NCBI GenBank assembly: GCA_030672365.1
Contig: DAOVGM010000012.1
Location: 1-36,570 of the forward strand
DNA length: 36,570 bases
DNA from: Methanomassiliicoccales archaeon
Lineage (GTDB): Archaea > Thermoplasmatota > Thermoplasmata > SG8-5 > JAGLSY01
Reading direction: 5' to 3'
The position numbers were made by a program, and so were the translations under genes. Below are positions 35,291 to 36,287 of the stretch, piece after piece. Every line of letters begins with the position of its first letter. The stretch's first letter is position 1. The notes below the pieces were generated by a model. It searched no databases. It had not been told where the DNA came from and worked only from the letters and a program-made list of their open reading frames with translations.

Positions 35291-35408
35291 TAGATGAGGA
35301 TAAGCTGGGTATGAAATAAAGTTTTTGCCGAAATGGTGGGTCGGGCAAGGGCTAACTTTGCTCACTGATGTTCACAAAGTTGGCCAACTCGCTTACAAAA
35401 ATAGCGAG

Positions 35409-35482
35409 TGGGCCCGCCCAGATTTGAACTGGAGGCTATAGCTCCCAAAGCTACAAGTCTAACCAAGCTAACCCACGGGCCC
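35409..35482 (-). tRNA. tRNA-Pro (anticodon TGG)
   Basis: Read on minus strand: acceptor GGGCCCG/CGGGCCC-A, anticodon arm GTAGC-TTTGGGA-GCTAT, T arm TCCAG-TTCAAAT-CTGGG. Confidence 0.93.
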
Positions 35483-35565: not shown

Positions 35566-35675
35566 GGGCCTATGGTCTAGTCGGTTTCATTGGTGGACCT
35601 CGGCAATCCGCCAATGCCGAAAATGACGTCGCCTTCACACGGCGAAGATCTCCGGTTCGAATCCGGATAGGCCCA
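35566..35675 (+). tRNA. tRNA-Val (anticodon CAC) with a 36-nt D-loop intron at 35587..35622
   Basis: Acceptor GGGCCTA/TAGGCCC-A (CCA encoded at 35676-35678), anticodon arm TCGCC-TTCACAC-GGCGA, T arm TCCGG-TTCGAAT-CCGGA; BHB: TCGG/CCGA 4-bp helix, TTT and AAA 3-nt bulges, 9-bp intron helix. Confidence 0.92.
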
Positions 35676-35717: not shown

Positions 35718-36287
35718 ATGGGATTGCTCGTAATTCTCGCTCAGGCGGTCTGGTTCATACTTCCGGCGCTGGCCCCGAGTTCCGGGGCAGTGCTCGTGGG
35801 CGGAGGGTCGCCTATCGATTTCGGAAAGAAAACGAAGGATGGCTCCCGTGTTCTCGGCGGCGGAAAGACCTGGCGGGGACTGGCCGGCGGAACACTCACC
35901 GGCATGGTCTTGGGCACGATTCAGAACTATCTGGCTCTCAATGTTTTCAACGAGCCGAACTGGGCGTTCAGCACCTCTTGGACCTCCACATTCTTGATTC
36001 TCTTTCTCCTTGCATTCGGCTCTATGATGGGCGACATGCTGGGGAGTTTCTGCAAACGGCGATGCGGCAAGAAAAAAGGAGATAAATTCCCGGTTATGGA
36101 CCAGTACGACCTAATCATCGGCGCCTTCATCTTCGTGATACCCCTGCAATGGGCCTGGTTCAACGCCCACTACGTAGAGGGCCAGCACATATTCGGATTG
36201 GTTTTTATACTGATACTCATACCCCTTCTCCATCGAATCACGAACATAATCGGATTCAAGATGGGCAAAAAGGAGGTGCCGTGGTGA
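35718..36287 (+). CDS. carS: CDP-archaeol synthase
   Basis: GGGSPIDFGKKTKDGSRVLGGGKTWRGLAGG, FGSMMGDMLGSFCKRR, MDQYDLIIGA. Confidence 0.9.
   Translation: MGLLVILAQAVWFILPALAPSSGAVLVGGGSPIDFGKKTKDGSRVLGGGKTWRGLAGGTLTGMVLGTIQNYLALNVFNEPNWAFSTSWTSTFLILFLLAFGSMMGDMLGSFCKRRCGKKKGDKFPVMDQYDLIIGAFIFVIPLQWAWFNAHYVEGQHIFGLVFILILIPLLHRITNIIGFKMGKKEVPW

Follow-up and report, generated by a model that had tools for sequence, protein, structure and literature searches.

A D-loop intron in the tRNA-Val(CAC) gene of a Methanomassiliicoccales archaeon and the loop-less alpha'2-type splicing endonuclease of its relatives

Introduction

The architecture of the splicing endonuclease EndA, above all its specificity loop, is considered in reviews to set which tRNA introns an archaeon carries (PMC4090602, PMC12397907). 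In lineages with an alpha4 or alpha'2 enzyme the introns are said to have stayed canonical and strict (PMC4090602, PMC12397907); loop-less alpha'2 enzymes are reported to cleave canonical motifs only (PMC6379350, PMC12397907), and a CSL or ASL loop is said to permit non-canonical motifs. Korarchaeum cryptofilum, which has such a loop, was called in 2014 the sole case of non-canonical introns alongside an alpha2 enzyme (PMC4033280). Here, we ask whether a putative tRNA-Val(CAC) gene of a Methanomassiliicoccales archaeon (Thermoplasmata), apparently interrupted in its D-loop, is a functional gene, and which enzyme would splice it. The window analysed is the whole 36,570-nucleotide stretch of contig DAOVGM010000012.1, which belongs to a draft genome (G000; 1.26 Mb, 92 contigs, 83.5% complete).

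Results

A valine tRNA concealed by a 36-nt intron

When run on the unspliced window, ARAGORN and Rfam missed the valine tRNA and called only the neighbouring opposite-strand tRNA-Pro(TGG); with introns allowed, ARAGORN misnamed the unspliced gene Arg(CCG). Taking out 35587-35622 restores a standard tRNA, which ARAGORN calls as tRNA-Val(CAC), and reduces the 110-nt gene to 74 nt (Table 1). The 3' exon aligns with its counterpart in intron-free Val(CAC) genes from relatives, L053 and L055 among them. In archaea, the cut falls between nucleotides 2 and 3 of each bulge, and the splice sites in Table 1 follow this rule. On the same contig, tRNA-Pro(TGG) (35408-35482) is a divergent neighbour of tRNA-Val(CAC), a pairing kept in another genome (L085, G001:C404); the CDP-archaeol synthase (CarS) gene (35718-36287) lies directly downstream of tRNA-Val(CAC), and 3' of CarS an apparent orotate phosphoribosyltransferase gene, read by eye, is cut by the window end.

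Table 1 Features of the tRNA-Val(CAC) gene. Gene sequence, intron in brackets: GGGCCTATGGTCTAGTCGGTT[TCATTGGTGGACCTCGGCAATCCGCCAATGCCGAAA]ATGACGTCGCCTTCACACGGCGAAGATCTCCGGTTCGAATCCGGATAGGCCCA
Feature	Position	Strand	Basis or remark
tRNA-Val(CAC) gene	35566..35675	+	ARAGORN, fold; sole Val(CAC) gene of the draft genome
5' exon: acceptor strand GGGCCTA, D-stem strand, D-loop to U20a	35566..35586	+	Sequence; splice after 5'-bulge nucleotide 2
D-loop intron (36 nt), inserted at 20a/21 of the tRNA	35587..35622	+	Same bulge-helix-bulge register kept across 26 Val genes
3' exon: A21, D-stem strand, anticodon arm, T arm, acceptor, discriminator A	35623..35675	+	
D-stem 5' strand GTC, pairs with 35625-35627	35575..35577	+	Pair probability 0.94-0.95
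Central helix, exon strand TCGG	35581..35584	+	Pair probabilities 0.96-0.99; covariation
5' bulge TTT, predicted cut TT^T	35585..35587	+	Sequence and archaeal cut rule
Inner helix h', 5' strand	35588..35597	+	Fold
Inner helix h', 3' strand	35607..35616	+	Fold; 9-nt loop 35598-35606
Central helix, intron strand CCGA	35617..35620	+	Pair probabilities; covariation
3' bulge AAA, predicted cut AA^A	35621..35623	+	Sequence; without adjacent closing outer pair
D-stem 3' strand GAC	35625..35627	+	Pair probability
Anticodon CAC	35636..35638	+	ARAGORN on spliced sequence, sequence

The predicted splice junctions lie in a motif close to the relaxed form

The unconstrained fold of the precursor contains the acceptor stem, a 3-bp D stem, the central helix, the inner hairpin, and the anticodon stem together, with a z score of -4.7 against dinucleotide shuffles, none of which (0/200) folds as well. 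A 4-bp central helix lies between two 3-nt bulges at both exon-intron borders, and when the intron letters are shuffled, a complete central helix together with an in-register inner helix of 5 bp or more arises in only 31 of 200,000 shuffles. Across 16 precursors, the central-helix pair probabilities are mostly 0.6-1.0 and those of the inner helix are high. The outer helix of the strict form is missing: no helix abuts the 3' bulge in this gene (pair probability of the adjacent exon-side pair, 0.00), and the base preceding the central helix pairs with U22 at a probability of at most 0.04 in 16 of 16 genes. The 3' splice site therefore sits in an internal loop that extends from the central helix to the D stem, and the D-loop motif resembles the relaxed HBh' form (term from PMC6379350) more than the strict bulge-helix-bulge. 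The insertion point, 20a/21, matches the known 20/21 class (PMC4090602). The preliminary description was thus right about the tRNA, its 36-nt D-loop intron and its coordinates, and the fold bears out the 4-bp TCGG/CCGA helix and the TTT and AAA bulges that it gave; the inner helix that it noted is present, with 10 bp and a 9-nt loop rather than 9 bp and an 11-nt loop, and its term 'perfect' or 'textbook' is too strong for a motif in which no outer helix adjoins the 3' splice site.

Compensatory changes maintain both helices

We scored all pairs of the central helix and pairs one to five of the inner helix in a gap-free alignment of 26 D-loop-intron Val genes from 15 genomes, all in one register; the tRNA-Val(TAC) inserts of G225 and G008 were excluded because their register is ambiguous. 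Helix cells are paired in 92.3% of cases, compared with 66.8% in shuffles, and 70 cells are changed on both sides, compared with 23.4. The covariation score is 0.838 against 0.298 in shuffles (0/500 as high), registers slid along the alignment reach at most 0.256, and an earlier set of 16 Val genes gave the same result. We set the register by eye, with the motif as guide; this somewhat favours paired cells but hardly accounts for the compensatory changes. Ten of the 26 genes have a single mismatch in the central helix, for the most part at the outer end of that helix. Both helices of the motif are thus maintained through compensatory change in the Val genes.

The intron recurs in three isoacceptors and across the order

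In the draft genome, the GAC gene (C57:34059-34165) and the TAC gene (C46:1331-1439) carry introns at the same site as the CAC gene. At least 12 of the order's 13 genomes contain a D-loop-intron Val gene; among the matches listed, G007 has none, and the insert of G008 is of ambiguous register. Outside the order, at least four genomes of other families (G013, G026, G036, and G110) carry such genes, and the other Val genes of the class, among the matches listed, are mostly 73-74 nt long and intronless. Intronless orthologous Val(CAC) genes with the same exons exist, e.g., in G007 and G023, and a broader scan of the phylum at a strict threshold matched, beyond G000, only an intronless gene of 74 nt. 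Three further inserts stand apart. The tRNA-Val(TAC) gene L096 (G008:C77, minus strand) has a 113-nt D-loop insert resembling two inserts, perhaps one intron beside or inside another; L137 (G225:C11:45971-46072), a Val(TAC) gene of a distant family, has a D-arm insert in a register unlike the others; and L150 (G000:C66:10180-10297), a tRNA-Pro(GGG) gene of 118 nt, has a helix-rich D-arm insert.

This distribution bears on whether the locus is a gene at all. That ARAGORN and Rfam do not see it unspliced is what a pseudogene, a retained insertion or an assembly error would also produce. Yet it is the sole CAC gene of its genome, the same insertion point recurs in three isoacceptors and 15 genomes, and both helices show compensatory changes, which together rule out a pseudogene or assembly error for practical purposes and leave such an explanation with a negligible probability. 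Two of the circumstances that the preliminary description had named as counting against it, a second intact Val(CAC) gene and an assembly error, were checked: no second copy was found in the draft, and relatives share the insert.

T-loop introns accompany the D-loop introns in some relatives

Val genes of G026, G036, G006, and G002 (GAC) are interrupted a second time, at about 59/60 in the T-loop; the genes with a T-loop insert (L092, L093, L102, L128, and L129) mostly have the D-loop intron too, and the CAC gene of G002 has the T-loop insert without the D-loop intron. The G026 precursor folds with the D-loop and T-loop motifs simultaneously, and in its T-loop motif the T stem serves as the outer helix. 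In G000, the CAC intron and the GAC intron have in common a 12-letter run across the 5' junction, TTTCATTGGTGG, and other genomes have differing intron sequences at the same place of insertion in their Val genes. The pattern would fit a history of copying between isoacceptors inside one genome and of loss in some lines, the putative losses being those of G007 (CAC and GAC) and of the D-loop intron of the G002 CAC gene.

Relatives encode a single tandem EndA

RtcB is present in G000 (E 8.9e-185), and EndA was sought by PF01974 and PF02778 matches: none was found in this draft, nor did the 78%-complete genome G001 give a match. EndA was found in 57 of the 61 genomes searched and in all 35 of those at least 90% complete. 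In several relatives (e.g., G002, G006, and G007) a radical SAM gene adjoins EndA, and this gene is also missing from G000; because the flanking gene is missing too, an assembly gap is likely, if unproven, and we do not conclude a true absence of EndA.

Within the order, and likewise in the intron-bearing families outside it, EndA is a single-gene protein of ~350 residues containing two PF01974 domains; the two examples scanned have the domain order N-C-N-C, and the active-site Tyr, His, and Lys are confined to the second unit. A single tandem EndA gene is found in nine intron-bearing genomes of the order (G002-G006, G008, G009, G011, and G012) and likewise in G013, G026, G036, and G110, and none of these 13 genomes has another PF01974 gene over the cut-off. 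G003, G004, and G110 are 91-94% complete with the tandem EndA only, and G026 and G036 are single contigs. A binning error is ruled out for G026, whose EndA shares a 3.2-Mb contig with a Val(CAC) gene interrupted in both the D-loop and the T-loop.

An (alpha-beta)2 enzyme with the Crenarchaea-specific loop (CSL) was defined by a Lys-containing insertion of ~10 residues that precedes the LSL(I/L)E helix in the catalytic unit, and by a separate beta gene. The Thermoplasmata EndAs lack these features: against the Aeropyrum pernix alpha chain, in which the loop lies between GQP and LRLSLIE, all 19 Thermoplasmata EndAs aligned have a gap. Nor do they resemble the epsilon2 enzyme of ARMAN-2, with its order alphaN-alpha-betaC, its middle catalytic unit and its ASL; their catalytic residues are in the last domain only. 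Heteromeric and epsilon2 enzymes were both sought in the relatives and not found. The predicted monomer structure (pLDDT 88.8) best matches the Methanopyrus kandleri beta-alpha fusion 5X89 (TM 0.85) and the Archaeoglobus fulgidus enzyme 2GJW (0.76), and more weakly the ARMAN-2 epsilon enzyme (TM 0.63). Judged from its sequence, the EndA of the relatives is of alpha'2 type, one chain with two N+C units of which the second is catalytic, and it would presumably act as a homodimer. The heteromeric endonuclease hinted at in the preliminary description finds no support in the relatives, which encode a single fused alpha'2-type EndA without CSL; the description's broader point, that a non-canonical D-loop intron in a euryarchaeal genome bears on endonuclease type, holds for this member of the Thermoplasmata.

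Exactly where CSL and ASL insert, these EndAs have a short turn, FGKxxG, with an invariant Lys (K212 of the G026 protein), which is also present in relatives without D-loop or T-loop introns. In the first, non-catalytic unit, the C domain of Thermoplasmata EndA P0001 (residues 106-177; PGKNxxxxxxLxxSE) resembles betaC, the last unit of the ARMAN-2 epsilon enzyme (4fz2, 300-376); the resemblance may bear on the origin of the non-catalytic unit.

Discussion

The locus is probably a functional tRNA-Val(CAC) gene whose D-loop intron is spliced by the homodimeric alpha'2-type EndA of the lineage together with RtcB. As a plausible mechanism, the pre-tRNA would fold so that exon TCGG pairs with intron CCGA between the 3-nt bulges, beside the 10-bp intron hairpin; homodimeric EndA would cut after U35586 and after A35622, and RtcB would ligate the exons to restore a normal D-loop. 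We infer that these cuts and the ligation take place at 35566-35675. The EndA of G000, missing from the draft, is presumably of the same type as that of its relatives, and the enzyme would have to tolerate the missing outer helix. Counting against this explanation are the specificity rule for loop-less alpha'2 enzymes, the lack of an adjacent outer helix at the 3' junction, the central-helix mismatch in 10 of the 26 genes, and the missing EndA of G000 and G001.

As an alternative, a broad-specificity endonuclease missed in the draft assemblies, either an (alpha-beta)2 enzyme with CSL or an epsilon2 enzyme, would remove the intron and leave only canonical introns to the alpha'2 enzyme. The published specificity rules (PMC6379350, PMC12397907) favour such an enzyme, and the window genome's own endonuclease is unseen, with no EndA match in G000 or G001. 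However, the tandem EndA is the sole PF01974 gene over the cut-off in each of the 13 intron-bearing genomes named above, several of them being nearly complete or single contigs, and the aligned EndAs are all without CSL, so that we regard a second enzyme as unlikely. Another possibility is a finer version of the splicing by alpha'2 EndA proposed here rather than its opposite: the D stem and tertiary contacts may act as the outer helix, and a narrow alpha'2 enzyme would then cut the D-loop introns as effectively strict substrates. The central helix, both 3-nt bulges, and the inner helix are all present with the D stem 2-3 nt away, and the alpha'2 EndA of A. fulgidus cuts a relaxed bulge-helix-loop at 37/38 in a full-length pre-tRNA (PMC6379350). 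The near-zero pairing of the adjacent base with U22 in the 16 genes speaks against it; this is not decisive, since secondary-structure energies ignore tertiary folding, and we consider such a role of the tRNA body a serious possibility, if not the favoured one. Among a broader alpha'2 specificity, an outer helix supplied by the tRNA body, and a hidden enzyme, the hidden enzyme is the least likely.

The introns resemble the 20/21 introns of Crenarchaeota and other archaea (PMC4090602) in their site beside 21, central helix, 3-nt bulges, and inner hairpin, and relaxed HBh' forms are known there too. In contrast to Crenarchaeota, the host belongs to the Thermoplasmata, the EndA of its relatives is a loop-less alpha'2 rather than a CSL-bearing (alpha-beta)2 enzyme, and the introns are concentrated in the tRNA-Val genes of one order and scattered families. 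The alpha'2 EndAs of A. fulgidus and Thermoplasma acidophilum (2GJW, 2OHC) have the same tandem chain, with the catalytic triad in the second half and no specificity loop, yet their reported substrates are narrow and canonical, whereas the introns here lie in the D-loop and the T-loop. The EndA of K. cryptofilum (PMC4033280) is also homodimeric (alpha2) in a genome with non-canonical tRNA introns, but it has a CSL-type loop, which the Thermoplasmata EndAs lack. Closest in both sequence and fold is the EndA of M. kandleri (5X89), a euryarchaeal enzyme without CSL or ASL that shows some relaxed-motif cleavage (PMC6379350); it consists of two separate subunits, (alpha-beta)2, whereas the Thermoplasmata enzyme is encoded by one fused gene.

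The lineage thus combines non-canonical, partly relaxed introns with a loop-less alpha'2 EndA in relatives, contrary to the rule given in the reviews. With D-loop introns beside the only EndA type found in the relatives, one thought too strict for them, either the enzyme-intron rule or the picture of how this enzyme reads RNA needs revising. We tentatively suggest that the Thermoplasmata may have evolved a loop-free route to relaxed intron removal within the alpha'2 EndA, letting D- and T-loop introns into valine tRNAs, and the invariant Lys of FGKxxG is, from its position in the alignment, a candidate determinant of such specificity. Default tRNA finders miss or misname genes of this kind, so that valine tRNAs may look absent from such genomes. 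The order, with members of three further families, provides a natural set of enzymes and substrates on which the specificity rule can be tested.
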